This document shows, piece after piece, positions 542-35,325 of a stretch of 49,160 nucleotides of DNA (position 1 is the stretch's first letter; every line of letters begins with the position of its first letter). Location: IMG/VR virus record IMGVR_UViG_3300020202_000097, positions 1 through 49,160 of that record; one strand, written 5' to 3'. The notes under the pieces were generated by a model that did no database searches, was not told the origin of the DNA, and worked only from the letters and a program-made list of their open reading frames with translations. The DNA comes from a virus. Position numbers and translations under genes: made by a program.

Positions 542-1654
542 TCAGAAGGTGACGACGTTCGGGTAGAACTCGCGCTCCGCGGCGCGGTTGTTCACCGCAC
601 CGAGATCGTCCTCGCTCTTCGGCGTGACGTCGGCCTGGATCGAGTCGGCGTCGAGGCTCGTCGCGTCGCCGGAGTAGAGCTCCAGCTTGCGGACCGACGC
701 GATGTTCACGAGCGACATCCCGACGTCCTTCCACGCGACGAACTTGATCAGGTTGATCACCTTGTCGATGTAGAACTTGACGTTGTTCAGGATGTAGAAG
801 CGCCCGAGGAACTCCGGCGACGTGTACGCGTACACGTTGCCGGGACGGAGGATGTCCGTCTTGATCGTGCGCACGACCTTCTTGCCGAGCAGCGTGTTGT
901 GCTGCCAGCCCGAGACGGTCGTCTCGCTCTGGACCTTCGAGCCGTTGTCCTCGATCGTCCACTGGAGGACGTTGTTGAGGTCGGTCGCCGTCATCAGCAG
1001 GAGCTCGCACTCCAGCCGGTTGCCGTCGAGCAGGCTCATGAGGTTGACGATGTCGGGACGCTGGACCGGCCAGACCTTCCCGTCGTTGTTCGTGTCGACG
1101 CGCGCGAGCTCGCCCTTGATGACCGAGAACTCGACGCAGGTGCCCGCGCTGAGGGTGGTCTCGTGGAGCGACGTGGTCGACCCGCCGTTCGCCTCCTTCT
1201 GGAGGGCCTGCACCGCGGCCTCGGAGTGGATCAGGAACTGGCGGTCCTGGATCTCGCCGATGTCGCGCACCGAGTTCTGCTCGATCACCTTCCCGATGGG
1301 GTACGGGTAGGCGAGGAACTCCTGCTCGGGCTTCTGGTACATCTCGCTCATGATCGTGATGAACGGGACTTCGACCCGCTCACCACGGATGAGCTTCGCG
1401 GTCGGCTCGCCGCGGAAGGTGACGACCATCGCGCGCGAGCGGGGCTCCAGGTGCTCGATCTTCACGAGCGAGTCGTGGTTGACCGAGATCTGGCAGTCCG
1501 CACGCGTGACGGTCTGGGGCGGAAGGACCTTCTCGACGAAGCTGGCTTCGCGAAGGCGGTCCTTGATGTAGCCCCCGAACTCCGCGGCGATCTTGGTCTT
1601 CGCCGAGGGGTCCGAGAGCTGCTGGACGAAGAGCTCCTTGGGATCGGACATCAT
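542..1654 (-). CDS. Major capsid protein (probable)
   Basis: A 370-residue protein starting MMSDPKELF, with an AGGAGA site eight bases upstream. Its length suits an HK97-fold major capsid protein. A beta-rich middle (for example the stretch from GEPTAKLIRGERVEVPF) and a long helix around QFLIHSEAAVQAL fit that fold, but I assign it mostly from position: in transcription order it follows the prohead protease, a charged scaffold-like protein and a decoration candidate, the usual head-gene order. The N-terminus carries Lys-Ile-Ala at 21-23, like the other head proteins, and could be a cleaved delta-like region. Tandem hairpins follow the stop. A tail-tube protein is a less likely alternative. 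Confidence 0.7.
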   Translation of the reverse strand: MMSDPKELFVQQLSDPSAKTKIAAEFGGYIKDRLREASFVEKVLPPQTVTRADCQISVNHDSLVKIEHLEPRSRAMVVTFRGEPTAKLIRGERVEVPFITIMSEMYQKPEQEFLAYPYPIGKVIEQNSVRDIGEIQDRQFLIHSEAAVQALQKEANGGSTTSLHETTLSAGTCVEFSVIKGELARVDTNNDGKVWPVQRPDIVNLMSLLDGNRLECELLLMTATDLNNVLQWTIEDNGSKVQSETTVSGWQHNTLLGKKVVRTIKTDILRPGNVYAYTSPEFLGRFYILNNVKFYIDKVINLIKFVAWKDVGMSLVNIASVRKLELYSGDATSLDADSIQADVTPKSEDDLGAVNNRAAEREFYPNVVTF

Positions 1655-12230: not shown

Positions 12231-14066
12231 TCACTCGAAGTTGGAGGGGTCGATGCCGTACGAGGCCGGGATGTCGCCGAGATACGAGTCGTCGCTGACG
12301 AACCCGGTGAGCATCGCTTCTTCAGCTTCCTTGAACGGCGCGATGATGTCGGGGCGCTTGTGCTCCAGGAACGAAGCGAGCAGGCAGTACAGCATCGAGT
12401 GGAAGGTGTCGTCCGTCTTCCCCTTCGGCTTGTCGTACTTGATCATGCGGAGGTTGTCCGAATCCTCCGCGTGGATGTTCAGGATGTCTTCGCCGAACGG
12501 ACGCTCGATGGTCTTCCAGCTCGGCAGACGCACCTTGCCGCGACGCAGCGCGTTGAAGAGGTCGGACATGAGCGGCGTGCGGAACGCGAGCGTCCGATGC
12601 AGCGCAGGGATGTACTTCAGCTTCACGTTCAGACGCGGTGCGTACTCGATCGGGAAGACGCGGTGGTTGCCGAACTTCGCGAGCAGACGCTTGTTCTGGT
12701 AGAAGCCGAAGCCGAAGTCGGTGCCGATGTACTTCGGTCGGAACATCATGATGAGGCGTTCGAGCTCATCCATCTGCGCGATCGGATCTGACAGAGGACC
12801 CGAGAAGCGTGTGTGGAAGATGTACTGGAACGATGCATCCGAGCGGCAGTAGGCGCCGATCGAGAGGACGGTGAACGCTCGCTCGCCGCTGCCCCAGTCG
12901 ATGCCGAAGAAGCAGGTGTTGGCCTGCGCGATCTCGCGAGCCTTCTCCAGGTCGTTCTCGTACTTGGGGTCGCACGCGGCGATGAGCTCCAAGCGCGAGA
13001 TCGGCTTCGAAGCCGAGTCGTACGAGATTGCGAGAACCTCGTTCATGAACTGAGCGGTGGGGTACCGCTCACGGGCGGCGAGGATCTCCTTCCACTTCTT
13101 CGGGTCCTTCCAGAACCACGGCACCATCAGACGACAGACGCGGTAACCCTCGAAGGTGATCTTCTCCCCGTCGAGCTCCTGCATCTGTACCCAGCGGGCG
13201 TAGGGGTGCTCGGGGTTGATCGGGTTACCACAGCGATCGCAGATGGGGCCGGTCTTGCCGAGGTTGTTCGGGCCCAGGATGTTCCAGTGCCACGTGGCCG
13301 GGTGGTTCGGCAGACCGTGGTGCTCGCAGGGGATGCACCATTCCGACATCGTCGAGCTGTCCGCCCAGTAGTTCTGGATGGTGTTGTCCATGCTCTTCGG
13401 CGTACCGGAGTAGACGAAGAGCGTCTCCTTGTGGTGCGACGTCGTCTCTTCGATGACGGGCATGATCGAGGACAGAAGGTCCTGGATCTCGTCGGCGAAG
13501 ATGTCGTTGACCGACAGGCCGCGGATACGGTCGGCGGTGAGGAACGCGTAGCGGAGGTAGACCTTCGAGCGCGTCGCGTAGTGCTTCTCGAAGACGTTGT
13601 TCGTCAGCGACTCGTGGCACTGCGCCTTGATGTAGGGGCTGATGTCCGAGATCTCCGCCATGCGGGACTTCGAGAAGACGGTCGTCTGCATGGCAGAGGG
13701 CGAAACGAACAGGATCGAATGGCCCTCCCGCATGAGTGCGCGGGCGAAGATTCGGTTGCCGATCGTCGTCGACTTCTCGGTCTGACGAGACGTGAAGAGC
13801 AGGACCTTGTTCGCCGGCGTGTTGTAGATGCGCTCCAGGTACTTACGCTCGTCGAACACCAGCGGGATTGCCTGGCCCGTGTCGCCGTCCTTGATGCGGA
13901 CGAACTCGGTGACCCATTGCGAAGTCAGGAGCTTGATCTTGTTGCCGGCCACCTGGCGGCGGGCGTAGAGCGCCTTGTACTCAAGGTCCTCTACGCGTAC
14001 ACCCGTCTGGATGCCGGACGGATCTTCGAAGCCGTTGAGCGTGAACCTCGCTGCCATCTCATCCAC
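12231..14066 (-). CDS. terL: Terminase large subunit
   Basis: A 611-residue protein that packages DNA into the prohead. The ATPase domain has a Walker A-like Ser-Arg-Gln-Thr-Glu-Lys-Ser-Thr (93-100) and Walker B with Asp192-Glu193. The RNase H-like nuclease domain has Asp390 (Gly-Ile-Asp-Trp-Gly), Asp450 (Ile-Gly-Thr-Asp) and an Asp552/Asp553 pair. Between them are two Cys-X2-Cys pairs (244/247 and 276/279) that likely bind zinc, an insertion also found in some large-phage terminases. The frame opens at a GTG (14066) with a weak ribosome site; an ATG at 14057 is a good alternative. No small terminase is obvious; the 137- and 305-residue genes upstream are candidates by position only. Confidence 0.92.
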   Translation of the reverse strand: MDEMAARFTLNGFEDPSGIQTGVRVEDLEYKALYARRQVAGNKIKLLTSQWVTEFVRIKDGDTGQAIPLVFDERKYLERIYNTPANKVLLFTSRQTEKSTTIGNRIFARALMREGHSILFVSPSAMQTTVFSKSRMAEISDISPYIKAQCHESLTNNVFEKHYATRSKVYLRYAFLTADRIRGLSVNDIFADEIQDLLSSIMPVIEETTSHHKETLFVYSGTPKSMDNTIQNYWADSSTMSEWCIPCEHHGLPNHPATWHWNILGPNNLGKTGPICDRCGNPINPEHPYARWVQMQELDGEKITFEGYRVCRLMVPWFWKDPKKWKEILAARERYPTAQFMNEVLAISYDSASKPISRLELIAACDPKYENDLEKAREIAQANTCFFGIDWGSGERAFTVLSIGAYCRSDASFQYIFHTRFSGPLSDPIAQMDELERLIMMFRPKYIGTDFGFGFYQNKRLLAKFGNHRVFPIEYAPRLNVKLKYIPALHRTLAFRTPLMSDLFNALRRGKVRLPSWKTIERPFGEDILNIHAEDSDNLRMIKYDKPKGKTDDTFHSMLYCLLASFLEHKRPDIIAPFKEAEEAMLTGFVSDDSYLGDIPASYGIDPSNFE

Positions 14067-17670: not shown

Positions 17671-18771
17671 TTACGACGACACCAGTACCTTCGTGGACAG
17701 GATCGCCGGCGTCGGCGGAGCAGAGCCCGCAGCGGTGGCGAGAGTCGTCAGGTACGTGAGGAGCTGGGCACCCAGAACGGCCGGTTCGCTGGCACTCGGG
17801 CCACCCACCATGACCTGCGGCGCGTCGATGACGGCCTTGCTGCCACTCTTGACGGTCGCGTCGCCCGTGGCCTCCAGCGTCGCCTTCCCTTGGGCCTTGT
17901 GCAGTAGATCCCCGTCGACCTCGTAGGTCTGGTTCCCCTTGACCCGCAGCGAGTGGTCGGCGCCGATGAGCTCCGTCTTGGCCCCGCTCATCTCGATCAT
18001 CATCGAGTAGACCTCGGAGCTGACTTCTCCGGTGTCCCTGTTGATGCCGTCCTGAGCGACCTTGATATCCCAGACGATCTTCGATTCACCCGTGGGGCCT
18101 CGAAGAGGGAAGTGTCGGACACGGAGAGTGGCCTTCTCGTCCTGCGCATACTCGTTCATGTGGAACACGTACGTGCAGGGGGCATCACCGCTCGGATCGT
18201 TCTCCTGGCGCTCGACCGTCATGCGGATGTCGCCGGCGAACGTGTCGAGCGAGTAGTTCTCGCAGAAGTCCTTGATGTAGTTGCCGATGGGCAGGCAGAT
18301 GCGCTGCGCGATCTCGGTGGCACCGATCTGGAGGATGCCTCCGCGACGCATGATGAAGAAGTTCTCGTCGCGCCCGATCCAGGCCATGTCGCCCGGCTGT
18401 AGATCGATGCGGTTGCCCTTGTACGAGATGTCTGTCGTGCTGCCGCCGTCGGACGTGCTCCGCAGCGGTGTTCCATCCGCCGAGTGCACCACCGTAGGCA
18501 GGAGCAGGAAGCCCATGATGAACGGGGGCGAGGTGTCGTTCGCGCGCCCCACCATGCACGTTGCGCCGACCTCCGGAAGGATCGTGCACCCCTCCCCGCT
18601 GTGGTTGTGCACATACGGGGAGAGGATCTGAAGGTCCTCGAACTTCTTCGACGTCGACTCGGTGACGACAGTCACCGTGTAGTTGTTCTTGTTGACGTCG
18701 ACGACCGTCGCCTTCTCACAGACGAACGGGAAGAAGGCCGAAGTGGACGGGCCATTTCCGGAGTAGGACAT
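17671..18771 (-). CDS. Baseplate / tail spike protein, gpV or gp5-like
   Basis: A 366-residue protein. Residues 15-105 have the pattern of the oligonucleotide-binding-fold domain of baseplate assembly proteins, including 'LPEVGATCMVGR' and 'SPPFIMGFLLLP' segments typical of gpV/VgrG-type N-terminal domains. Residues 265-335 are a run of short beta-strands (repeating small hydrophobic, Gly, Asp/Lys) like the beta-helical needle of such spikes. The C-terminus is an Ala/Thr/Pro-rich tail. It would puncture the cell envelope at the tip of the tail. The ATG overlaps the RNA polymerase stop (TGATG), so the two are translated together. Confidence 0.7.
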   Translation of the reverse strand: MSYSGNGPSTSAFFPFVCEKATVVDVNKNNYTVTVVTESTSKKFEDLQILSPYVHNHSGEGCTILPEVGATCMVGRANDTSPPFIMGFLLLPTVVHSADGTPLRSTSDGGSTTDISYKGNRIDLQPGDMAWIGRDENFFIMRRGGILQIGATEIAQRICLPIGNYIKDFCENYSLDTFAGDIRMTVERQENDPSGDAPCTYVFHMNEYAQDEKATLRVRHFPLRGPTGESKIVWDIKVAQDGINRDTGEVSSEVYSMMIEMSGAKTELIGADHSLRVKGNQTYEVDGDLLHKAQGKATLEATGDATVKSGSKAVIDAPQVMVGGPSASEPAVLGAQLLTYLTTLATAAGSAPPTPAILSTKVLVSS

Positions 18772-21700
18772 CAGTACCCTGCGACTCCTCGACCGTGCCC
18801 GAACTCAGCGCCGTACGCCAGACCCGGGATCGGGTGGAGTCCGTGGATGTCGGACTTCTCGCCGATCGAAGCGGCGTTCGTGATGTGCTGCTGGAGCTGG
18901 TTGCTCATCAGCCGGCCCATCCAGTCCTTCTGCTTCATCGCGGTGGTGGTCTGCATCGGCTCCAGCCGTGCGTGAGCGATGATCGGGCGCTTGCCCTTGA
19001 GGACCGTGCGGTTGATCTCGTCGATGACCGACTTCTGAAGGTGGTCACCGCGAAGGATGGACGGGTGATCACCCGGATCGACGACCGTCATCGTGCTTGT
19101 CGCGTTCCGGACCGTGAGCTCGACGTGACGACGAAGGACGCCCTCCTTCTCGTAGATCTTGCCGACGCGATCGACCATGAAGTCCTGCGCCGCCTCGATG
19201 CCCTTGATCTTCGTGAGCTCGCGAAGGTTCGGGTCACCTTCGGTCAGCATCTCGCCTCGGTGGAACGAGTAGCCCACCGTGACGTGCGGCTTCGGCTTGT
19301 GACGCGAGTAGAGCGGCACCTTGCTCGTGTCGTAGTAGATGCGGTAGCCGCCCTGAGGAGGCGTCTCGATGCGCGTCACCTTGCCGCTCTTCGGTGCGAG
19401 CACTGCATCGACCGGCGACTTCTTCGCGACACCGAAGATGTTCTGCACGGTGCTGAACTCGTCTACTGCACCACGCTCGATCGGCACGATGCCCTGGTTG
19501 TGCGTCTGCTTCAGCATGAGCTGCGAAGCACGCTCACCGATGGCCTGCGCCGAGATGATGCCGACGTTGTCACCGATGGCGTAGTTGCTCCCGCTCGGGT
19601 GCTTGCCCATGCAGGTAGAGCACACACCGTGCGGCATGCGGCACTTCAGAGGCGAGCGCACGAACACGTGCGTGACCCCGTTCTTGGCGAACGAGCTCTG
19701 CATTTCCGGCGTGATGATCGACCCAGCCGGATGCCCCATGACGGGCGAGGCGAGGTAGCGATCCACCAGGTCGCGATCGTTCGCGCTGAGGCTCACGCCC
19801 TGCGTCGTGCCACAGTCGTGCGACGTGATCGGCGAGTCGATGTTCGACTGGATGAGCTCCTTCGTGAGCACGCCGGGATCCCGCACCGCATCCGTCTTCT
19901 GGATGACGCCGCGGCGCGCACCCGAGGACTGAAGGAAGTAGCCACCGATGTCGATGCCCTCGGAGAACGAGCGCGTGATCGGAATCTTCGACGGTCGGCC
20001 GAGGTGATCCTCGACCAGCATCGGGGCGATCACCAGGCCCTGGAACTGCTCGCGCTTGGCCTTGATGCCCGAGTGGGCCATGTCCGAGACGTTCGTCGGG
20101 TTCTTGTGGTGGTTCTGGCTGTAGACCTGGTGGAGCGTCTTGGTCGCGTCCTGCCAGATCTTCGTACGCTCGTCGTCGGTCTTCGCCTTCTCGGCGAGCC
20201 GCTTCGCTTCGCTGATGATGCGCTGTCGATCGGCGCGCAGCGGTTCGAGGTCGCTCAGCCGGACAGTGTGTCCGCTCTCGTAGGCCATCTTGAAGCCGAG
20301 CTGCGTGATGTTCTGCGTGAGGGCACCAAAGTGCGCAGGCTCGTTGCGAGCGACATCCTTGAGCAGGTCGTTGACGAACTTCTTCGTCACCGGAGCCTGA
20401 AGGTCGGTGAGGATCCGCTCCCGGTACTTCTGCGGAACCATCGAGGCGATGCGAGCACGGCCGAGCGTCGTGCGCTTGCCCTCGATGGTCACCACGTCGT
20501 CCAGGTTGATCTTGTTCTCGACGAATGCCTTCTCGGCATCCGCCTTGGACGTGAACGAATGCGTGGTCTGTCGCTTGGGCAGCGACATGCGGTAGAGCGC
20601 GAGCAGCGCTTCGTTGGTCGGGGTGAAGAGCACCTCACCCGTGCTGGCCGAGATCGAGCGGTTCGAGGGCAGGAGCTTGTGTACCTCCTGCACCGCCTCG
20701 TGGCTGATGGGCAGCATCAGCGCGACGGCGTCGCCGTCGATGTCACCGCCGATCGGAGGCAGCACCAGCGGGCTGACCTTGATCGCGCGTGAATCGGTGA
20801 GGCGAACCTTCTGGCCGATGATGCCGTACTGGTGGAGCACCGGGTCGCGCTTCATCAGCACCGGACGGTGCTCGATCTCCTGTCGAAGAACTTCCTCGGC
20901 CGTCTGCGTGCGGGCCGAGATGTCCTTCTGGGCCTGGAACGGGTCGATGCCCATCTGCGTGAGACGGCGGGCCACGATCGGGCGGTAGAGCTCGAACGCG
21001 ATCTTCTTGGGCACTCCGATCTCGTCAGGACCCAGCGTCGGGTCCGCGACGATGGTCGCACGGGCCGAGTAGTCCTGCTTCTTGCCGATGACCTTGTCCT
21101 GGAAGAAGCCGTCCTTCGGACTCTCGCCTGCGATCGAGTGAAGGATGCCGGGCAGGTGACGACCACGGATCTCCTTGCCGTGGTAGTCGATGTCGAGCGC
21201 CTTCTTGTTCTTCGGCGTCGTCCCGATGAGGTTCTGCATCTCCTGGAACAGGTCGCCCTCGTGCTTGAGTAGGCGCTTGTGCGGGATGCCTTCCTTGCGG
21301 GAGTCGAGCAGCGAGTTGTTGACCATGCCGAGCCGGCGATAGAGCTGGTTCAGCGGGTCGATGCGATCGAGCGAGTCCGTGCCTTCCTGGAAGGGACGGT
21401 AGATCGGAGGCAGCACCGGCAGGTACTGCATCGTGTACGCCTCCGCCGGCGTCTTGCCCTGCTCCTTGAGCGACTGGAGCGCCTTGTACGTGAAGGTCGC
21501 ACGGCTGAGATCAGCGCCCTTCACCTTCGGGTCGTCGATCTTCGCCTTGAGCTTCTTCATCTCCTTGTCGATGTCGATCTTGGCGAGCGCTTCGCGAACC
21601 GCTGCACCGCCGGACTTGCCGCCGACCGTGAGCTCGCCCGAGACGACCTTGTGCAGGAGCTGCGTCTCGTTGAGGCGCTGCTTGCCCTCCTGCTTCCCGC

Positions 21701-24700
21701 GAAGGTCGAGCAGATTGACGATCGCCTTCGCGAACACAGGGTTCGGCATCGGCGAGGCGAGCTCGACGTATCCCCACTTGTTCTTGTCGGGGCCGAAGAT
21801 GCGGGTGTCGAAGATGCCGCCGGATTCCGGCTTCATGTTCTTCGCCATCACGGTCGCTGCGGGGTTGGTCACCTTCGCGTGCTTGCCGGCACGCTCCAGG
21901 ATCTCCTTATCCGTCAGCGGCATGATGCGGAGCTGGCTGCCCTTCTTCTCCGTGTTGAGACCTGCCGCGTGCAGCATCGCCTCGAACTTGCTGTAGACGA
22001 AGGGCACCTGCGGAGGCGGTAGCGGCTCACCGTTGACGAGCGACTGCCAGAGCGCCTCGGCCTGCGGCTTGTCCGACTTGAGCGTCTGCATCTCGCCGAG
22101 GTTCTTCTTGAGCCCCGCGGCGAGCGCACCGTACACGCCGAGGGAGCCCAGGCTCTGTGCGCCCGACTCACCGCCCCCGCGCGGCACCATGTTGGTGTCG
22201 TACTGGATCATCGGGGCGAGGTCCTTCACGTAGAACCCGCCGTGCCGAACGTGCGTCTTCTTGTCGATCTGGTGTTCGAGTTGGAAGACGTAGTGCGGGC
22301 CGACCGTGACATCGCCGATCTTGCGCCCAGTCTTCGGGTCGATGAGCGTCTCGGTCTCCTTCAGACCGTGCTTCTTCAGCTCGTCCTGAACCTTCTTCAG
22401 GTAGTCGGTCTGTCCATCGAAGTTCTTGACGATGTACGGCTTGCCCGTCTTCTCGGCGATCTTGCCAGCCGCCGTCTCCAGGATCTGGCCCGGGTTCATG
22501 CGGCCCGGCACCGAGACCGGGTTGATGAGCATCTCGACGTGCTCCTTCTTCCCGTTCTTGTGGAAGAAAGGCATCTCGTGATCGGGCACCACCTGCGTGA
22601 CGATGCCCTTGGCGCTGTGACGCGTGGAGACCTTCGAGCCCACGACGAGCGGCTCCTCGGTCTTCACGTGGACCACGATGTTCTTGTTCGCTCGCGTCAC
22701 GCGAACGACCGTGCCCGGGTACGGGTGGTCCCACGTGAGCGCCGCGTTGCTGAAGCCAAGACGTCCGCTCTTCTTCGAGAGCTGCGCCAGCATCTTCGAG
22801 TCGAGCGACTCCGGATCGCGCTGAGCACGCAGCGCCAGCACGAGCGGGTCTCCAGGCTCGACGCGAGTACCAGGCTTGATGAGCCCGTTCGCATCGATCT
22901 TGGCGAGCTGCTGCGGGGTGTACGACATCCCCTTGTGCTTCTCGAACTCGGTCTTGCTGACCGTGTGGTCCGAGGTGACGTAGAACGACGGCTTGAGCAG
23001 GTGCTCGGTACCGAGCTTCTTGGCTGCGCTCTCCGAGAGAACGATGCCGTCTTCGTGGTTGGCCCCGTTCGCGACGTACGCCACACGCACGTTCGCACCC
23101 AGTGCGAGCACGCCGTTCTTCGTGAACGAGTGGTCGGCCAGGACCTGGCCCGCCTTCACCGAGTCGCCGACCTTCACCAGCGGCTTCGAGTGAAGCATCG
23201 CCTTCTTGTCGTTCAGCGGGTAGTGGTCGTAGAGGTGGACCGCGTGCTCTCGTCCGTCCTTCCCCTTCACGATCACTTCGTCCGACTTCACGGCGATCAC
23301 CGTTCCGTCGACGGGCGACTTGTGGGAGAGGAAAGTCTCGCCGATGCGCTTCTCGAAGGAGTGACCCGGCGCCGCCTCCACCTGTACCGCCGGCGGCTCA
23401 CGACCGACGACCGAGAGCGCCTGTGCCATGTGGCGTGCGGACATCGTCGTACGACCTGCCGCGTCGTTCTGCATGAACGGCACGAGGTTCGTCTCGGTCG
23501 AGAACACCTGTCCCGGGGTGATGAGGGCGTACTCCGCCTTGCTGAACGGAACCTCTTCGATCTCGCCGTTCTTGTTCGAGACGCGCACCTGCTGGTTGAT
23601 CGGCTTGGGCTTGCCCGCCTGCCACTGGATCTGGTCCGGCAGGACCACGACAGCACGAGCTGCCTCCGCCGGCGTGAGCTCCTCGACCTTGCCGGTCTTG
23701 AGGTTGTAGAGCTTCGTGTACGGCTTGCGGTCCTTGATGGACACGCCACTCGTCAGGTGGAGCGAGGTGCCAGCTCCCGAGCCCTCGGGCGTGAAGACCG
23801 GATCGAGGAAGCCGAGGTGCGACGGGTCGACCGAGGTGTTCGACAGCGTCACCTGATGCTCGGACTTCAGGCCACCCGGACCCATGATGGTCGTGTGACT
23901 GTGGTCGGCGAGCATCGTCACCGGGTTCGTCTGCTTCGAGTTGCTCGCGAGCGCCGTGGCGAAGACGTGGTTGATCGGCTTCTGGATGAGGTCCGGCATC
24001 ACGATGTCGCGAAGGACCGTGCTGTTGCCGGCACGCAGCCCTTCCATCGTGCTCTTCTTGCCGAGCGACTTCAGCACGCGGCTGTGGATGTCGGTCTTCG
24101 ACGCCTTCAGGCGTTCGACGAAATGGTCGGTCGGCGTCCAGAGCTCCTTGAACTCCAGCGAGTCGATCGGGTCCGGCTGGACCTTGTTGGCGCTGACGTT
24201 GATCAGCTTCGCGCTCGCGCGCAATAGCGCCGGGCCCGAGACCGACTCGAAGGGACCGCCGAGCGTGGTCTTGGTGACCGCCGCGTCCATCTTCGTCTCG
24301 GACAGGTACTTGTTGATCGCCTGCGGCAGATCCTCCGGCACCTGCTGCGAGTCCTTCATCGCCGTGTAGAAGGACTTCAGATCGTGCTCGTAGCGAGCCT
24401 TCTTCTGGTTGGCCGCGAAGCTCTTGTCGCCCCACGCCTTCTTCATCTCGTCGTCGCTGACGCCGGTGGCCTTCAGCACCGAGTAGAGCGGGATCTTCCT
24501 CGACCCGCTCTTGATGAACATGTAGCCCGTACCGGGCTCCATCTGCACATCGAAGCTCTTGCCCTTGGCGAGCTGGAACTGCGCCTCGTACTCGCCCTTC
24601 TTCTCGGTGGCCTTGACGTATGCACCGGGCCGAAGACGCCACTGGTTCGAGACCGTCTTCTCCTGGCCGCCGATGATGAAGCTGTGGTGGCGTGTCAGAC

Positions 24701-24986
24701 GCGGGATCTCCGCAAGCCGCATGCGGCGGCTGGCCAGCACCTTGCCGTCGCGATCGACGATCTCGACGTGGCCGTAGACGGGCGCCGTGTACGAACGGCC
24801 CGAGAGCCGCGCCTCCATCTGTCCCTTGATGTCGTCGGTGCCGAGCTCGGCTCCGCCCACCTCCAGCTTCTTCACACGCACCTCGATCCCACTCTTGGAA
24901 TCGACGATGGGGAAGGTGCTGGAGATCTCGGCCAGCAGCCGGGCCTTCAGCTCCTCAAACTGCTTGTTCGGGTCGATGGTCAGCAC
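18771..24986 (-). CDS. Fused beta-beta' multi-subunit-type RNA polymerase, single chain
   Basis: One continuous frame of 2071 residues. Residues 1 to about 1000 match beta: a fork/rifampicin region at 352-403, the Gly-Asp-X-Val-X-Ala-Gly-X-Val-Leu-Ala-Asp segment near 607, Lys785 and Lys793 in the beta DPBB (equivalents of E. coli K1065 and K1073), and Pro-X-Arg-Met-Asn-Pro-Gly-Gln at 827-834. Residues 1030-2071 match beta': Gly-Gly-Asp-Ile-Asp-Gly-Asp (Asp1415, 1417, 1419), the catalytic magnesium triad; a bridge helix at about 1680-1712; zinc ligands C1725, C1782, C1789 and C1792; and a trigger-loop segment at 1803-1832. The first beta' zinc domain is missing. The start is a GTG six bases after a TAGACT box. 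It lies in the virion operon and overlaps the baseplate gene. No alpha, omega or sigma subunit is seen. Confidence 0.95.
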   Translation of the reverse strand: MLTIDPNKQFEELKARLLAEISSTFPIVDSKSGIEVRVKKLEVGGAELGTDDIKGQMEARLSGRSYTAPVYGHVEIVDRDGKVLASRRMRLAEIPRLTRHHSFIIGGQEKTVSNQWRLRPGAYVKATEKKGEYEAQFQLAKGKSFDVQMEPGTGYMFIKSGSRKIPLYSVLKATGVSDDEMKKAWGDKSFAANQKKARYEHDLKSFYTAMKDSQQVPEDLPQAINKYLSETKMDAAVTKTTLGGPFESVSGPALLRASAKLINVSANKVQPDPIDSLEFKELWTPTDHFVERLKASKTDIHSRVLKSLGKKSTMEGLRAGNSTVLRDIVMPDLIQKPINHVFATALASNSKQTNPVTMLADHSHTTIMGPGGLKSEHQVTLSNTSVDPSHLGFLDPVFTPEGSGAGTSLHLTSGVSIKDRKPYTKLYNLKTGKVEELTPAEAARAVVVLPDQIQWQAGKPKPINQQVRVSNKNGEIEEVPFSKAEYALITPGQVFSTETNLVPFMQNDAAGRTTMSARHMAQALSVVGREPPAVQVEAAPGHSFEKRIGETFLSHKSPVDGTVIAVKSDEVIVKGKDGREHAVHLYDHYPLNDKKAMLHSKPLVKVGDSVKAGQVLADHSFTKNGVLALGANVRVAYVANGANHEDGIVLSESAAKKLGTEHLLKPSFYVTSDHTVSKTEFEKHKGMSYTPQQLAKIDANGLIKPGTRVEPGDPLVLALRAQRDPESLDSKMLAQLSKKSGRLGFSNAALTWDHPYPGTVVRVTRANKNIVVHVKTEEPLVVGSKVSTRHSAKGIVTQVVPDHEMPFFHKNGKKEHVEMLINPVSVPGRMNPGQILETAAGKIAEKTGKPYIVKNFDGQTDYLKKVQDELKKHGLKETETLIDPKTGRKIGDVTVGPHYVFQLEHQIDKKTHVRHGGFYVKDLAPMIQYDTNMVPRGGGESGAQSLGSLGVYGALAAGLKKNLGEMQTLKSDKPQAEALWQSLVNGEPLPPPQVPFVYSKFEAMLHAAGLNTEKKGSQLRIMPLTDKEILERAGKHAKVTNPAATVMAKNMKPESGGIFDTRIFGPDKNKWGYVELASPMPNPVFAKAIVNLLDLRGKQEGKQRLNETQLLHKVVSGELTVGGKSGGAAVREALAKIDIDKEMKKLKAKIDDPKVKGADLSRATFTYKALQSLKEQGKTPAEAYTMQYLPVLPPIYRPFQEGTDSLDRIDPLNQLYRRLGMVNNSLLDSRKEGIPHKRLLKHEGDLFQEMQNLIGTTPKNKKALDIDYHGKEIRGRHLPGILHSIAGESPKDGFFQDKVIGKKQDYSARATIVADPTLGPDEIGVPKKIAFELYRPIVARRLTQMGIDPFQAQKDISARTQTAEEVLRQEIEHRPVLMKRDPVLHQYGIIGQKVRLTDSRAIKVSPLVLPPIGGDIDGDAVALMLPISHEAVQEVHKLLPSNRSISASTGEVLFTPTNEALLALYRMSLPKRQTTHSFTSKADAEKAFVENKINLDDVVTIEGKRTTLGRARIASMVPQKYRERILTDLQAPVTKKFVNDLLKDVARNEPAHFGALTQNITQLGFKMAYESGHTVRLSDLEPLRADRQRIISEAKRLAEKAKTDDERTKIWQDATKTLHQVYSQNHHKNPTNVSDMAHSGIKAKREQFQGLVIAPMLVEDHLGRPSKIPITRSFSEGIDIGGYFLQSSGARRGVIQKTDAVRDPGVLTKELIQSNIDSPITSHDCGTTQGVSLSANDRDLVDRYLASPVMGHPAGSIITPEMQSSFAKNGVTHVFVRSPLKCRMPHGVCSTCMGKHPSGSNYAIGDNVGIISAQAIGERASQLMLKQTHNQGIVPIERGAVDEFSTVQNIFGVAKKSPVDAVLAPKSGKVTRIETPPQGGYRIYYDTSKVPLYSRHKPKPHVTVGYSFHRGEMLTEGDPNLRELTKIKGIEAAQDFMVDRVGKIYEKEGVLRRHVELTVRNATSTMTVVDPGDHPSILRGDHLQKSVIDEINRTVLKGKRPIIAHARLEPMQTTTAMKQKDWMGRLMSNQLQQHITNAASIGEKSDIHGLHPIPGLAYGAEFGHGRGVAGY

Positions 24987-25022
24987 CGTCGCAGTCTACT
25001 GCTCCGTGCTCTGGAGGGTCAA
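24987..25022 (-). promoter_or_regulatory. Leaderless sigma70-like promoter for the RNA polymerase operon
   Basis: Reading leftward: TTGACC (25022-25017), an 18-base spacer, TAGACT (24998-24993), six bases, then the GTG start of the RNA polymerase. The -10 box would place transcription start at or next to the GTG, giving a leaderless mRNA. The same arrangement precedes the leftward gene at 35289. There is no good Shine-Dalgarno before this GTG. Confidence 0.6.
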
Positions 25023-25052
25023 CGAACGTGGCCGAATCAGGCCGGTTCCTGC

Positions 25053-25061
25053 CCTATCAGA
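25053..25061 (+). promoter_or_regulatory. CCTATCAGA motif, copy 2
   Basis: An exact copy in the divergent gap, 15 bases before the ATG at 25077. It heads the rightward block that carries the MoxR/VWA genes. Confidence 0.5.
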
Positions 25062-25076
25062 GATGTGGAGGCGACC

Positions 25077-25229
25077 ATGCCGGACAACGAGCACCAGGAC
25101 GACCCCGCTTACTTCGAGCGGACCGACACGCTCACGCAGTTCGAGGACTTCGTACAGAACGCGGTCCTCCTGAACATGTACCCGGAGAAACACGATGAAG
25201 CCGACGACGCAGAACCTGCTGCTGCTTAG
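25077..25229 (+). CDS. Small acidic protein (50 aa)
   Basis: A 50-residue acidic protein starting MPDNEHQDDPAYFERTD, with a strong GTGGAGG before the ATG. It is the first gene after the CCTATCAGA motif. It is rich in Asp, Glu and Thr, with a short helix near DTLTQFEDFVQNAVLL. It overlaps the next gene by 35 bases. Small acidic early proteins of phages often bind host enzymes, but nothing specific is visible here. Confidence 0.6.
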   Translation: MPDNEHQDDPAYFERTDTLTQFEDFVQNAVLLNMYPEKHDEADDAEPAAA

Positions 25230-25320
25230 TGTCGTCGCAGGCTTTCTTCTCGGCGTCTCTCACCACCTCTACTACGTCCTCTGGAGACTGAATGACCCGC
25301 CCCGCGACGTACGCTCATGA
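25195..25320 (+). CDS. Small single-span membrane protein (41 aa)
   Basis: A 41-residue protein starting MKPTTQNLLLLSVV, read in a different frame from both neighbours and overlapping both. GGAG stands seven bases before its ATG. Residues 8-30 are strongly hydrophobic and would make one membrane span with a short basic C-terminus. Positive charges on both sides of the span make topology uncertain. The ribosome site and the membrane segment support a real gene. Function unknown. Confidence 0.55.
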   Translation: MKPTTQNLLLLSVVAGFLLGVSHHLYYVLWRLNDPPRDVRS

Positions 25321-25765
25321 CCACGATCACGAGACGCCGGACTGCGCCGAGTGCAACGAGCCGGTCGGCGTCATGGAAGACGCCACGGTCCTGCTGAAGG
25401 GCCAGTTCTTCTACAACAAGGAGGAACAGTGCGCGATGTTCCTCCTCGATCCCGACACCGAGATCGCCATCGTCGAGATCAACAACGGGTTGGGTGATGG
25501 GCGCCCGCAGCTCGCTCTCGTCCTGAACAAGGACGACATCGCTCCGGTGCGCGCAATCCACGACAACTGCCTGGGCGACTACGACCCCGACGCAGCCTCC
25601 GACGAAGAGGAGGACGACGACGAGGACGAGGAGGACGAGGACGACGAGTACGTGTTCGGCGGCGAGCACTACTCCGAGGACTATGAGGACGTGAAGCGCG
25701 CCATCGAGCGCGATCACACGATCTGGGACGAGCAGGACATGTTGCACAAGAGAGGGAGAAGCTGA
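25292..25765 (+). CDS. Acidic protein with a Cys pair, upstream of the MoxR gene
   Basis: A 157-residue protein starting MTRPATYAHDHDHE, with GGAG before the ATG. An N-terminal His/Asp cluster and Cys-Ala-Glu-Cys (18-21) could bind metal. Residues 30-85 look like a small beta-rich domain. Residues 100-118 are almost all Asp/Glu, a DNA-mimic-like or flexible acidic linker. It overlaps the MoxR gene by one base and so is coupled to it. It may be an adaptor or substrate of the ATPase module. No known family recognised. Confidence 0.65.
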   Translation: MTRPATYAHDHDHETPDCAECNEPVGVMEDATVLLKGQFFYNKEEQCAMFLLDPDTEIAIVEINNGLGDGRPQLALVLNKDDIAPVRAIHDNCLGDYDPDAASDEEEDDDEDEEDEDDEYVFGGEHYSEDYEDVKRAIERDHTIWDEQDMLHKRGRS

Positions 25766-26880
25766 TGCCGAAGTACTCGGAAGCTCAGAAGCAGGCGCTT
25801 CAGGAGCTCACCGTTCAGTGGGAGAGCCGCTACCTGTCCATCCCCGCCCTCATGGGCGGGGTGGGCCTCGGCAAGACCGAGATGGCCGGAAGCCTGGCGG
25901 CGGAGATGAGCGAGGTGATGGGCGACGCGCTCATTTTTGAGCCCATCGCTACGGGTGAAGCTTCGGACCCGACCGACACCTCGGGCATCCCGTGGGTCAT
26001 CGACGTCGAAGACCCGAACGGTGTACTCACCAAGAAGGACCAGCGCGTCCTCTGGGTGCTCAATCGTGCCGCCTACCAGGCGTGCCACGTGCCCACGCTT
26101 CTTCTTTTCGATGACATCGACAAGGCGACGAACATCGTCGTCAACTCGCTCCTGAACCTCTTCGTGCATCGGCGGTTCAAGGACTACGCGCTGCATCCGA
26201 ACTCGCTGATGATGTGCGCGGGCAACCGGACCCAGGACGACATCCACGCGAACCGTCTGTCGGAGTCGCTCCGTACGCGCGTGACGATCATCGAAGTCGA
26301 GGCCGACTTCGACGACTTCGCCGAGTACGCGAAGAGGACCGGCAACATCCACCCGCACCTCATCGGCTTCCTGTCGGCTCGACGCGAGCTCCTCCACAAG
26401 TACGAGGAGAACGTCTACCGCTTCCCGACTCCGCGTGGGTACCGCGAGGCGTCGCTCCACATGTGGAAGTTCCACGACGAGAAGGAGTGGCCGGCGATCC
26501 TGGAGCGCAAGCTCGGGGCCGCCGTGAAGGCCGACTTCCTCGCCTGGTACAACATCCTCTCGAAGATCGACGTCGACTACATCCTCATGAACGGCGAGAT
26601 CAAGAACATGCCGTCGGGTGCCGTCGAACGGAAGATGGCGGAGTTCGCCTCGGTCTTCGCCCTCACGATGCGAATGAACCAGAAGGGCGGCGTGCAGCCC
26701 GGATGGACGGGCATCGAGAAGTTCATCGACAACCTGAAGGACTCTCCGGAGCTGAAGGTGGCGTTCCTCCTTCAGATCCGCGACGAGATGCGACGCGAGT
26801 TCCGCAAGCACTACAAGTCGGCCGCCGGCAAGCTCATGGGCTCAGTCATCGCCGACGCCGACGAGACCGAGGAACCGTGA
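25765..26880 (+). CDS. MoxR/CobS-type AAA+ ATPase
   Basis: A 371-residue AAA+ ATPase. Walker A is Gly-Gly-Val-Gly-Leu-Gly-Lys-Thr (31-38); Walker B is Leu-Leu-Leu-Phe-Asp-Asp (112-117). A GNRTQDD segment, typical sensor-1 context in MoxR proteins, follows near residue 155. MoxR ATPases act as hexameric chaperones with a VWA partner encoded next door, helping metal insertion or complex assembly. The partner gene follows here with a GTGA overlap. The C-terminal 160 residues are helical and less typical. Which complex the phage module remodels cannot be read from the sequence. Confidence 0.85.
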   Translation: MPKYSEAQKQALQELTVQWESRYLSIPALMGGVGLGKTEMAGSLAAEMSEVMGDALIFEPIATGEASDPTDTSGIPWVIDVEDPNGVLTKKDQRVLWVLNRAAYQACHVPTLLLFDDIDKATNIVVNSLLNLFVHRRFKDYALHPNSLMMCAGNRTQDDIHANRLSESLRTRVTIIEVEADFDDFAEYAKRTGNIHPHLIGFLSARRELLHKYEENVYRFPTPRGYREASLHMWKFHDEKEWPAILERKLGAAVKADFLAWYNILSKIDVDYILMNGEIKNMPSGAVERKMAEFASVFALTMRMNQKGGVQPGWTGIEKFIDNLKDSPELKVAFLLQIRDEMRREFRKHYKSAAGKLMGSVIADADETEEP

Positions 26881-29583: not shown

Positions 29584-31470
29584 TCACCCTCCAGCGCCGC
29601 CCAGCGAGACACGACGAGGCGGTCGCTGTTCGGGAAGCGGTCGCATGTCGACCCCACCGCCTGAGGGCCTGAGCATGTTCTGTCGAACGAGCTCCGCCAT
29701 CTCGGGTGCAGTGTTCGCCAGGTGCGTCAGGTTCTGCGTCTGCATGTCACCCGGCATCTTGCCGATCTCGGCAGCGAGCGCGGCAGCGGCCTGGTTCAGC
29801 GGCAACCCCGCCGGCGCCGAGGCGAGCTGCGAGGCGTTCTCCTGTCCGAACGCAGGAGCCGCGGCGCCCTCCATGGCGGCCTGCTGCGCCTTCATCTGCG
29901 CCTCGTTCATGATCTCAGTCGCCTGCGCCTGGTAGCGCGCCTGCACGACCATCGCCTCGCCCTGGATCTCGGCCTGAGCGAGCTGCTGCTTCTTCAGCGC
30001 CTCCATGCGGATGGCCGTCTCCTTCATCTGGAGCTCGGCCTCGTCCTCGACGTTGAAGTCCATCATCGAGATGAGCGAGGTGTCGCTGATCTTCGACATC
30101 TGGTTCAGACCCTGCGCGAAGGCCATGCGCTGAAGGTCGTCCGCCATCTTGAACGGCTTGAAGCGGGCGGTGGGCACCGGCCAGTTCAGGTAGTCACCGA
30201 TGCGGCGCATCGTCCAGTGCAGCATTCGGAACTGGTTCTGCACGTTCGAGAGGAAGAAGTTCTCGACCATGCGCATCGAGACGCTCGTGCCAGCGTAGGT
30301 GCCCTGACCGAATACGAGGTCGATCGGGAAGCCCATGCCGATGGCGACCATCTCGCCCATCTGCCGGATCTCCTGCATCAGCAGGAGGGCACGTCCGTTC
30401 TCGCCGATGATCTGGTGGCCGATCGGGAACGGCAGGATGCCGTAGTAGCTCGGGTCCATCCGCTGACGGGCGAGCTCACGCTGGATGTGACCACGCCAGT
30501 CGGCGAGGTTCACCGTCGAGAAGGGATCCGCGCCCGAGGTGGCAGGCTGCGGGTAGAGGAAGATCTGCGGCATCAGGTGCGTGAGGAGCACCGTCTCCTG
30601 TGCCTTCTTCATGATCTGCATGTAGAAGGCGTCCTTGAGCACCGGCATGAGAAGGGGCACGCCCCAGCCCATGTCCATGCTCGACAGCGCCGGCCTCCGC
30701 ATGTGGAAGACCTCGCGCTTGTCGAACACGAGGAGCCGGCGCTCCTTCACGGCTTCGAGGAAGAGCTGCGGCGTCGTCGCGACGATGTCCTTGCGCCCCA
30801 TCGTGACGAGGGACTTGAACTTCGGCGACAGGTCGAGCGCATAGTCCATGCGCCCGGTCGACTCGTTGAAGAAGATCGAGACGTTCTCCGGGTTCCACCG
30901 GATGAGCCCGATCTCGGAGGCCTTGGGCAGGTACTTGTCGTGCCCCTTGGCAAAGTTCGACTGACCGCACTTGGGGCACGTCAGGTAGAACTTGTGATCG
31001 GTGTACCGCCAGCTCTTCAGGTGTTCGAGCGCGTCGATCTCCGCAAGACAGCCGTCCTGCGGGCACTTCAGGTACTTCCTGAAGGGGAAGCTCGGGGACA
31101 CGAACGCGTTGCCGTAGACGTAGTAGTCGAGGTTCACCTCGAACTGGTGCGTCCGGTACTGCATCGCGCCGAGCATCTGATCCCGCCATCGATCCGCGAC
31201 TCCTCGCTCCTTGTGCGAGAAGTTGATGTCGGTGATGGGGTACTCGGCGGCCTTCGTGCAGATCGCGTTGATGATGCCGTGCGTCAGGTAGTAGTAGCGG
31301 CAGAACCCGAACAGGCTCTTCACCGACTGCGGCGTGTAGGTCGACGCCTGGTCGAAGAAGGGGTTCGCGAACGGCGCATACTGCCGCCCGAGGATGTTCG
31401 TACGGTTGAACGAGCCGCTGAGCGATGCTCCGCGGTTCTCAACCATCCCCTGGGCGCCGAAGAACGTCAT
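29584..31470 (-). CDS. Portal protein
   Basis: A 628-residue protein forming the ring through which DNA enters and leaves the capsid. The middle has portal-like features: a helical region with many aromatics (55-130), a conserved-looking Gly-Asn-Ala-Phe-Val segment (120-124), a long stem-like stretch near 390-450, and an alpha-helical, Gln/Ala-rich coiled-coil barrel region (about 480-530). Inserted at 136-168 is a zinc ribbon, Cys136-X4-Cys141 and Cys165-X2-Cys168. The C-terminus is Pro/Gly/Arg-rich. It lacks the Lys-X-Ala signature near its N-terminus. The ATG has no good ribosome site but is six bases after TAGTAT, as in the leaderless operons. Confidence 0.8.
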   Translation of the reverse strand: MTFFGAQGMVENRGASLSGSFNRTNILGRQYAPFANPFFDQASTYTPQSVKSLFGFCRYYYLTHGIINAICTKAAEYPITDINFSHKERGVADRWRDQMLGAMQYRTHQFEVNLDYYVYGNAFVSPSFPFRKYLKCPQDGCLAEIDALEHLKSWRYTDHKFYLTCPKCGQSNFAKGHDKYLPKASEIGLIRWNPENVSIFFNESTGRMDYALDLSPKFKSLVTMGRKDIVATTPQLFLEAVKERRLLVFDKREVFHMRRPALSSMDMGWGVPLLMPVLKDAFYMQIMKKAQETVLLTHLMPQIFLYPQPATSGADPFSTVNLADWRGHIQRELARQRMDPSYYGILPFPIGHQIIGENGRALLLMQEIRQMGEMVAIGMGFPIDLVFGQGTYAGTSVSMRMVENFFLSNVQNQFRMLHWTMRRIGDYLNWPVPTARFKPFKMADDLQRMAFAQGLNQMSKISDTSLISMMDFNVEDEAELQMKETAIRMEALKKQQLAQAEIQGEAMVVQARYQAQATEIMNEAQMKAQQAAMEGAAAPAFGQENASQLASAPAGLPLNQAAAALAAEIGKMPGDMQTQNLTHLANTAPEMAELVRQNMLRPSGGGVDMRPLPEQRPPRRVSLGGAGG

Positions 31471-33954: not shown

Positions 33955-35289
33955 TCACCGCTGCTGGCTGTCGGAGGCGAGACGGGCGAGCACGACCTTC
34001 TGCGGGTCGGGCATCGACGAGAAGACCGCGATCGGGTCCTTCTGGAAGCTCTTGCGGACGTCGTCTCCGAACGCCTGTTCGACGAGCTGCCACTGGTTCG
34101 CGGCGAGGTTCTTCAGCATCTCGTCGCTGACGTACTCGTTGCCCTGCGACCAGGACCACGACTCGTCCTTGGCGTACTTCCCGAAGGTCGCCTGGATCGG
34201 GTCGCGGAAGCCGAGCGGGCGGTTGTAGTAGTGGTCGGCGCCCACCTGCCGATCGATGTCGGCGAGCATGTCGACCATCAGCGCGGGCTCGACCGCCGCG
34301 CGCTTCATGAGCAGCGCCTCGTAGGCCGCCGCATGCTCGGTGCCTTCGTAGTTGCGCATGCGCGAGACGAGCTCCGCCTCGATGAACGGGCCGTACTCCA
34401 TGCCCGCGTACTTCTGGACCATGCCGGTGACCGGCATGTGCAGCTCTTCGAGGCGGGCCGCGACGTTCAGCGCGTACTCGCGCCGCTCTTCGAGCCCGAG
34501 CTTCGAGTAGTGCTCATCGAAGTAGGCCGAGGCCTGCTTCACGTGCTCGTAGGAGTCGAGCGGGTACTTGCCCTCCGAGGGGAGGGCGAAGCGCGTGAAG
34601 GCCGAAGCGACCTTCTCCACCGGGCGGTGCGCGGTGAGGTCGCCGGCACGCTCCCAGCGGATCTCCTCGGCGATCTTCTTCGATCCCGCCGAGCTCGACG
34701 TGGGCTTCGCCGTGTTGCGCGGATGCGGCCACTGCGCGAGGTGGCCCGACATCGGCATCATCTCCGTTCCGTTCAGCTCCGCACGCTTCATCATGTCGGA
34801 GGTGATCCCGGCCTGGCCGGCACGGAAGCCGTCCATCGCGGTACGCGCGGCGCTCTGTCCGCTCGTCATCCGCCCAGCGGCGTTGGAGAGGTGGCCGAGG
34901 GCGTCGAGGCCCCTGCCCACGAGGCTCGTGATGCCGGCGAGCTTGAGCAGCTCTTCGGGTGCCTCCATGTCGTACCACTCGCAGGCCCCGACGAGGTTCC
35001 TCGCCGCGGTCTTGCGCGCCGACTCCGGCAAGAGGTGAGCCCGGTCGAGGAAGTACACGACCGACGTCGTCAGGTGCGACGAATCGTGCATCGCGTACTT
35101 CCGGATGGTCTCGCCGGCGTTCTCTGCCACGAGCGCGAACATGCGGTCGGGCAGTTGCGCCAGCTCCTCCTGCTTCACGAGCTCCATGTCCTGGAGATGC
35201 GCAGGAAGCTCGGCGCCAGCCAGCTTCGTGACGAGGAGCGACGCGTTCGCGTCGTCGTAGATGTCGAGGATCACGCCCGCGAGATGCAT
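33955..35289 (-). CDS. First gene of the portal operon, virion-associated, unknown function (444 aa)
   Basis: A 444-residue protein starting MHLAGVILDIYDDANASLL. It is helical, with around ten Lys-X-Ala motifs (first at 22-24) and a small Gly/Ser-rich linker near 195-205. There is no Shine-Dalgarno; the ATG is six bases after TACCCT, as for the RNA polymerase gene, so the mRNA is probably leaderless. The very dense Lys-X-Ala pattern is shared with the scaffold-like protein. It may be a core or internal protein. Function unknown. Confidence 0.75.
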   Translation of the reverse strand: MHLAGVILDIYDDANASLLVTKLAGAELPAHLQDMELVKQEELAQLPDRMFALVAENAGETIRKYAMHDSSHLTTSVVYFLDRAHLLPESARKTAARNLVGACEWYDMEAPEELLKLAGITSLVGRGLDALGHLSNAAGRMTSGQSAARTAMDGFRAGQAGITSDMMKRAELNGTEMMPMSGHLAQWPHPRNTAKPTSSSAGSKKIAEEIRWERAGDLTAHRPVEKVASAFTRFALPSEGKYPLDSYEHVKQASAYFDEHYSKLGLEERREYALNVAARLEELHMPVTGMVQKYAGMEYGPFIEAELVSRMRNYEGTEHAAAYEALLMKRAAVEPALMVDMLADIDRQVGADHYYNRPLGFRDPIQATFGKYAKDESWSWSQGNEYVSDEMLKNLAANQWQLVEQAFGDDVRKSFQKDPIAVFSSMPDPQKVVLARLASDSQQR

Positions 35290-35325
35290 GGCCCAAGGGT
35301 ACGGCAGTCACGACAGAACGGTCAA
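35290..35325 (-). promoter_or_regulatory. Leaderless sigma70-like promoter for the portal operon
   Basis: Reading leftward: TTGACC (35325-35320), 18 bases, TACCCT (35301-35296), six bases, then the ATG at 35289. The -35 box, both spacings and the lack of a ribosome site are the same as at the RNA polymerase promoter 10 kb away. Confidence 0.6.

Follow-up and report, generated by a model that had tools for sequence, protein, structure and literature searches.

How does a virus come to carry, in a single gene, what looks like the core of a cellular RNA polymerase, and what would such an enzyme do for it? The question is raised by a gene in the window analysed here, which is a whole IMG/VR virus record of 49,160 bases. 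The gene (18771..24986, minus strand, GTG start) is read from 24986 down to 18771 through 2071 stop-free codons, exactly the uninterrupted frame proposed by an earlier, sequence-only reading. Profiles and relatives confirm that the 2071-aa protein consists of an entire bacterial-type beta with an almost complete beta' joined on behind it. It matches the Pfam families Rpb2_6 (1.8e-52), Rpb2_3, Rpb1_1, Rpb1_2 and Rpb1_5; in NCBIfam, rpoB covers residues 255-1012 (2e-96) and rpoC residues 1098-2050 (4e-125), and the top relatives among solved structures are bacterial beta' and beta chains. An artefact of assembly or frame is ruled out, since three independently assembled contigs (L003, L004 and L007, 72-83% identity) share the single frame. 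Coding by long antisense ORFs was also considered, and dismissed as an artefact of GC-rich sequence.

The chain was mapped onto E. coli RpoB and RpoC in a first family alignment that still included the antisense ORFs L008, L011 and L014; its catalytic positions are concordant with an independent alignment (A1), and the three ORFs were taken out before profiles and trees were built. The beta part (residues 1-1013; 21948..24986, minus strand) is delimited by the rpoB HMM, the alignment to E. coli beta and a model of residues 1-1110, and the beta' part (residues 1019-2071; 18774..21932, minus strand) by the rpoC HMM and a model of residues 1000-2071. The two meet at residues 1013-1019 (21930..21950, minus strand), where a join near residues 1000-1030 had been expected; residue 1013 aligns with E. 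coli beta 1338 and residue 1019 with beta' 20, the linker between them being some 5 residues long. Every catalytic position is retained relative to E. coli. Lysines 785 and 793 of the beta double-psi beta-barrel (DPBB; 22608..22634, minus strand) correspond to K1065 and K1073, the Asp triad D1415/D1417/D1419 within GGDIDGD (20730..20744, minus strand) to beta' D460/D462/D464, R1380 to R425 and, in the trigger-loop region (residues 1811-1832; 19491..19556, minus strand), Q1822 to Q929 and H1829 to H936. The whole protein has only four cysteines (1725, 1782, 1789 and 1792; 19611..19814, minus strand), which are exactly those of the beta' Zn2 site. Both barrels of a two-barrel RNA polymerase are represented, by the beta lysine pair and the beta' DxDGD triad, and the domain order and fold of the bacterial type are complete (flap, clamp coiled coil, bridge helix, trigger loop, Zn2). 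Only the beta' Zn1 ribbon and the lineage-specific inserts of E. coli are missing; the suggested minimisation of a cellular enzyme was overstated, being slight. The alignment also shows the flap-tip helix and the beta' coiled coil, to which sigma binds in cellular enzymes. At the E. coli rifampicin contacts D516, H526 and S531, the window has K, D and T, and Salmonella phage Arash, a relative discussed below, has D, N and T; with these differences, the phage enzyme is predicted not to respond to rifampicin.

The catalytic loop itself varies. Where E. coli has NADFDGD, the window has GGDIDGD, with Gly at the position of N458. Among the sampled phage ORFs, NADFDGD occurs 82 times, GGDIDGD 14 times (the window clade), AADYDGD 13, AGDFDGD 11, AGDYDGD 6, NGDIDGD 4 and NADIDGD 2 times. 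Gly in the window clade, and Ala in Arash and in the twice-cut type C described below, takes the place of the Asn that touches the ribose 2'-OH, and as these lie in separate branches the Asn was lost in at least two of them. The idea that Gly here signals a loss of NTP selectivity was set aside. The equivalents of R425 and Q929 remain and the N458S substitution costs E. coli only about 4-fold (PMC7862312), so the effect of losing the Asn is expected to be modest.

Structure prediction agrees with the alignments. Using a 20-locus alignment, two overlapping halves were modelled, each on its own and free of DNA and sigma, and both match the corresponding bacterial folds. The model of residues 1-1110 has low global confidence (pLDDT 72, pTM 0.43), and its top Foldseek hits are without exception bacterial beta (E 1e-55, ~1100 columns); its poor global superposition is due to the free placement of domains. 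The model of residues 1000-2071 (pLDDT 80, pTM 0.63) fits bacterial beta' with a TM of 0.72 and a VIA-align Z of 34.5 across 993 residues. In a viral structure library, the best named phage matches were weaker than the bacterial ones.

The gene is not alone. Four relatives used to scan IMG/VR brought up 78 loci, and further loci came from scanning by catalytic motif. Three architectures occur: a single chain of 2008-2391 aa (A; at least 40 complete cases in IMG/VR), a beta plus N-terminal part of beta' (1448-1529 aa) followed by the C-terminal part of beta' (~600 aa) (B), and a form with an additional cut at ~1110 (C). The cut in B lies at ~1505 in window numbering, close to the cyanobacterial rpoC1/rpoC2 split, and this architecture includes Arash gp206/gp216 and Vibrio phage D69. 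In one locus (L058) beta itself is cut near residue 510, besides the cut near 1505. Another (L136) was considered as a case of separate beta and beta' genes and rejected, as its break is inside beta near 975 and its junction is fused. The beta-beta' junction is fused in all 112 informative family ORFs (111 scored plus L136), and in 110 of 111 the gap between the beta and beta' matches is 1-7 residues. The fusion is thus ancestral to the family, and was not made independently in this phage as first supposed. Nor does the gene lack relatives: the family is large and widespread, and includes isolated phages with a fused junction, namely Arash (OQ632216) and Vibrio phages D69, D148 and D181. The window belongs to this Arash-type family, as defined here, by its in-frame beta-beta' and its place in the family's one clade. 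The 50,697 GenBank phage records searched yielded no complete single chain. Some INPHARED 'phage' records (OR846602, OR844998 and similar, from Enterococcus, Staphylococcus, Listeria and Salmonella) seem to carry ordinary bacterial rpoBC, as contamination from the host. Several related polymerases bear insertions of 340-525 aa with LAGLIDADG motifs (L168:6883-7941, L181:5135-6199, L054:14108-15715, L122:2947-4182(-) and L178:2476-3705), at the beta lysine site, next to the Asp triad or within the trigger loop; those in L054 and L122 also bear intein-splicing domains, and the insertions look like inteins. With single, once-cut, twice-cut and intein-bearing forms, the family is a natural experiment on where this enzyme can be split.

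The sequence-only reading had called the enzyme close to cellular. This is right for the domain layout but not for descent, as the trees of each half (beta', 96 rows; beta, a quick tree of 70 rows) and a joint beta+beta' tree (41 rows, 1326 columns, IQ-TREE LG+C20 PMSF, root not inferred) all recover the fused family as a single clade lying outside both Bacteria and Archaea. In the joint tree, Bacteria and the fused phage family are each supported at 100/99, Archaea and a further set of phage loci, group X, each form a single clade at 100/100, and the split between {Bacteria, Archaea} and {fused family, X} has 99/97. Nesting within Bacteria, Helicobacter included, is ruled out by all three. 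Long-branch attraction between the phage groups may play a part. A single-chain member, L134, is sister to all the rest of the fused family, and the cut forms group with one another; on the simplest account the single chain came first and the cuts later. The placement of L134 is unsure, since the beta-only quick tree puts this long branch on the cellular side of the split. Group X (L117, L118, L124, L128, L163, L169, L180, L191, L200, L220 and L221) is a clade separate from the fused family and placed as its sister. It has a beta' of ~900 aa, followed, in loci that extend far enough, by an adjacent beta gene of ~1000 aa. Compared by description, its gene lengths and NADFDGD loop resemble those of the published mReC enzymes, with which it is probably identical.

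A bacterial core normally comes with an alpha dimer and omega. Neither was found in the relatives' records, the window itself being a fragment: alpha (PF01193) was detected in 0 of 13 records of the family (controls positive, 13/14) and omega (PF01192) in 0 of 20 (controls positive, 14/14), Arash and D69 giving none of either, though both subunits could be too divergent for Pfam. Sigma is a different matter. Sigma70_r2 matches only Arash, D69 and one further relative, but each of the 19 records besides the window (Arash itself counted) encodes a homologue of the 234-aa Arash sigma gp10, among them the L007 genome, the window's nearest relative, whose polymerase is 83% identical to that of the window. 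Both gp10 and the L007 homologue score above the cut-off for Sigma70_r3 and also match FliA/RpoD-type sigma models. In region 2, the virion sigma resembles known sigmas weakly. The window's 49-kb fragment does not reach the gp10-type sigma region, and sigma use and packaging in this virus accordingly rest on homology.

The gene stands in a structural cluster of a large tailed phage, as the sequence-only reading had it for a phage virion operon. Upstream is a 628-aa portal protein (29584..31470, minus strand; homologue of Arash gp204, 27% identity to L005:9953-11692), directly downstream a baseplate-assembly-like protein (17671..18771, minus strand; phrog_9992, 7e-7), and further downstream the large terminase subunit (TerL; 12231..14066, minus strand; PF05876). 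A weak match marks a probable major capsid protein (542..1654, minus strand; phrog_2522, 7e-5). The order portal-polymerase-baseplate-TerL is kept in relatives of the window clade, and Arash and D69 have portal-small gene-RNAP. A MoxR-like AAA ATPase gene (25765-26880, plus strand; phrog_1297) adjoins the polymerase gene divergently throughout the window clade. Two tiny divergent ORFs (MPDNEHQDDPAYFERTDTLTQFEDFVQN..., MKPTTQNLLLLSVVAGFLLGV...) lie at 24987-25291 (plus strand), between the polymerase gene and a 157-aa gene, in a region partly conserved in L003, L004 and L007.

A promoter-like site, TTGACC-N18-TAGACT (24993..25022, minus strand), lies 6 nt ahead of the GTG start in a leaderless arrangement, the only exact match in the window (expected, 0.01). 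All 14 window-clade members examined have TTGACC-N-TAGACT (TAAACT in one) 5-7 nt ahead of the GTG, and the site is conserved where the spacer around it is not; relatives outside the window clade do not have it. A similar site, also TTGACC-N18-TAnnCT, precedes the gene at 35289 (35296-35325, minus strand). By their sequence these sites suggest leaderless sigma70-like promoters and, with 64% GC, hint at an actinobacterial-type host. A genome-wide promoter class of the form TTGACC-N-TAnnCT was not upheld and is not claimed, because there are only a handful of matches per genome.

What the enzyme does is best approached through Arash, whose virions have been analysed by proteomics and contain the sigma gp10 and both polymerase pieces, gp206 and gp216 (PMC10585845). 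More spectra came from gp206 than from any other virion protein, and gp216 and gp10 were also strong (PMC10585845). Per residue, the counts are 2.31 for gp206, 2.00 for gp216, 2.00 for gp10 and 1.51 for the portal; spectral counts are a crude measure of stoichiometry, and these length-normalised values of ~1:1:1 suggest an equimolar holoenzyme. The virions also held ribonucleotide reductase and other cytoplasmic-type enzymes, and the authors allow for carry-over out of infected cells (PMC10585845). The reading we prefer, and consider likely, is that the window encodes the single-chain core of an alpha-less, sigma-dependent holoenzyme that is packaged in the virion and serves early genes; its activity, independence of alpha, packaging in this virus and early role are what we infer. 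One chain would make up the complete catalytic core of a polymerase owned by the phage, with the ~5-residue linker enforcing 1:1 assembly of beta and beta' and removing the need for an alpha-dimer scaffold and omega. Its partner would be a phage-encoded gp10-type sigma, docking on the beta flap-tip helix and the beta' coiled coil. Expressed from the structural gene region, core and sigma would be packaged, injected and set to transcribe early phage genes without the host RNA polymerase. The fuller proposition, that this is the two-protein holoenzyme of an ancient phage lineage, lacking alpha and omega, lying outside the bacterial and archaeal enzymes and injected from the virion, is plausible to us at somewhat short of even chances.

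The most serious rival keeps the same alpha-less, sigma-dependent enzyme and changes its timing: it would be made after infection for middle and late genes, and its presence in Arash virions would be carry-over. The other cytoplasmic-type enzymes in those virions speak for this, and the conserved sigma70-like leaderless promoter of the window clade would suit early expression by the host polymerase, although such a promoter is compatible with packaging. Set against it, gp206 tops the Arash spectra with sigma at a matching level, and the gene stands among portal, baseplate and terminase genes; we regard this rival as rather unlikely. It is less probable still that the phage chain stands in for beta and beta' alone, combining with host alpha, omega or sigma so as to redirect host transcription. 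The failure to find alpha and omega genes in relatives and the retained sigma-binding elements would fit such a hybrid, but all 19 relatives have a sigma of their own, and docking of host alpha is unlikely at ~25% identity to the bacterial subunits. In the phage multisubunit enzymes studied, mixing of phage with host subunits is not known to occur.

The chain might instead be a polyprotein, translated as a fusion from which a protease later releases beta and beta'; in its favour, the junction falls at the point where cellular subunits are separate. Fusions of the Helicobacter type work uncut, however; the linker of 1-7 residues is conserved in length across deep branches (110/111 ORFs), and relatives are cut near 1110, 1505, beta ~510 and beta ~975, never at the junction, so that we give this very little credence. 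Least probable of all, to the point of being negligible, is that the gene was recently acquired from a bacterium whose rpoBC is fused (Helicobacter/Wolbachia type) or is an assembly artefact. Such bacteria exist and the NCBIfam fused models do score, but far below cut-off; in the beta' tree Helicobacter falls within Bacteria and the window outside, and independent contigs carry an equal frame.

If the preferred holoenzyme reading is right, this is a minimal sigma-dependent polymerase of bacterial type built from two polypeptides. It would then offer a simple setting in which to study the real need for alpha and omega, a transcription tool of phage origin and compact size, and, for work on how cellular RNA polymerase evolved, a deep outgroup. 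Deep-branching phage RNA polymerases are already known; the single-chain bacterial-type architecture with a dedicated sigma looks undescribed. The open-access literature yielded no account of a phage whose bacterial-type beta-beta' forms a single chain, an absence that is no proof.

Among known systems, the Helicobacter/Wolbachia RpoBC proteins (NF007172, NF011417) likewise join beta tail-to-head with beta', but they are independent fusions, cellular enzymes with alpha and omega that nest in Bacteria, and the window scores 400.6 bits against the fused-equivalog cut-off of 5372. The phiKZ/AR9-type polymerases are also multisubunit-type enzymes owned by the phage, one form being virion-packaged, but they are split into 4-5 polypeptides, and the group 1 jumbo phages encode no sigma (PMC7824862, PMC7598289), whereas the window has a single 2071-aa frame. 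The crAss-like gp66, YonO and P23-45 gp96/gp64 carry both barrels in one chain and some occur in virions (PMC10770324), but they are extremely divergent, their type being defined by a lack of recognisable similarity to cellular beta/beta' profiles; the window matches rpoB (2e-96) and rpoC (4e-125) and has every bacterial beta and beta' domain in cellular order, except for Zn1 and the lineage inserts. The contrast with both groups drawn in the sequence-only reading thus stands. Within the cellular clade, PMC10770324 also speaks of 'derivatives with fused DPBB domains', with no detail in its text. Nearer are the Caudovirales mReC enzymes, whose definition asks for NADxDGD together with beta and beta' matches that each reach 800 aa or more (PMC7481178, Weinheimer and Aylward 2020). 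Like the window, these are phage beta/beta' recognised by cellular models and reported to branch outside the cellular clades (PMC7481178). They differ in the loop (GGDIDGD in the window) and in the associated capsid PF07068 and terminase PF03237, the window's capsid candidate lacking PF07068 and its TerL being PF05876; the mReC paper mentions fusion for crAssphage only (PMC7481178). The closest comparison is with Arash and the Vibrio phages. The Vibrio phages are homologous over 97-98% of the window chain with the beta-beta' junction fused, and Arash and D69 have the portal-RNAP order and gp10-type sigma of the window's relatives. They differ in a beta' cut at ~residue 1505 into a second gene and in the loop AADYDGD. 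The fusion in Arash gp206 had gone undescribed under the label 'beta', an annotation that is corrected here.
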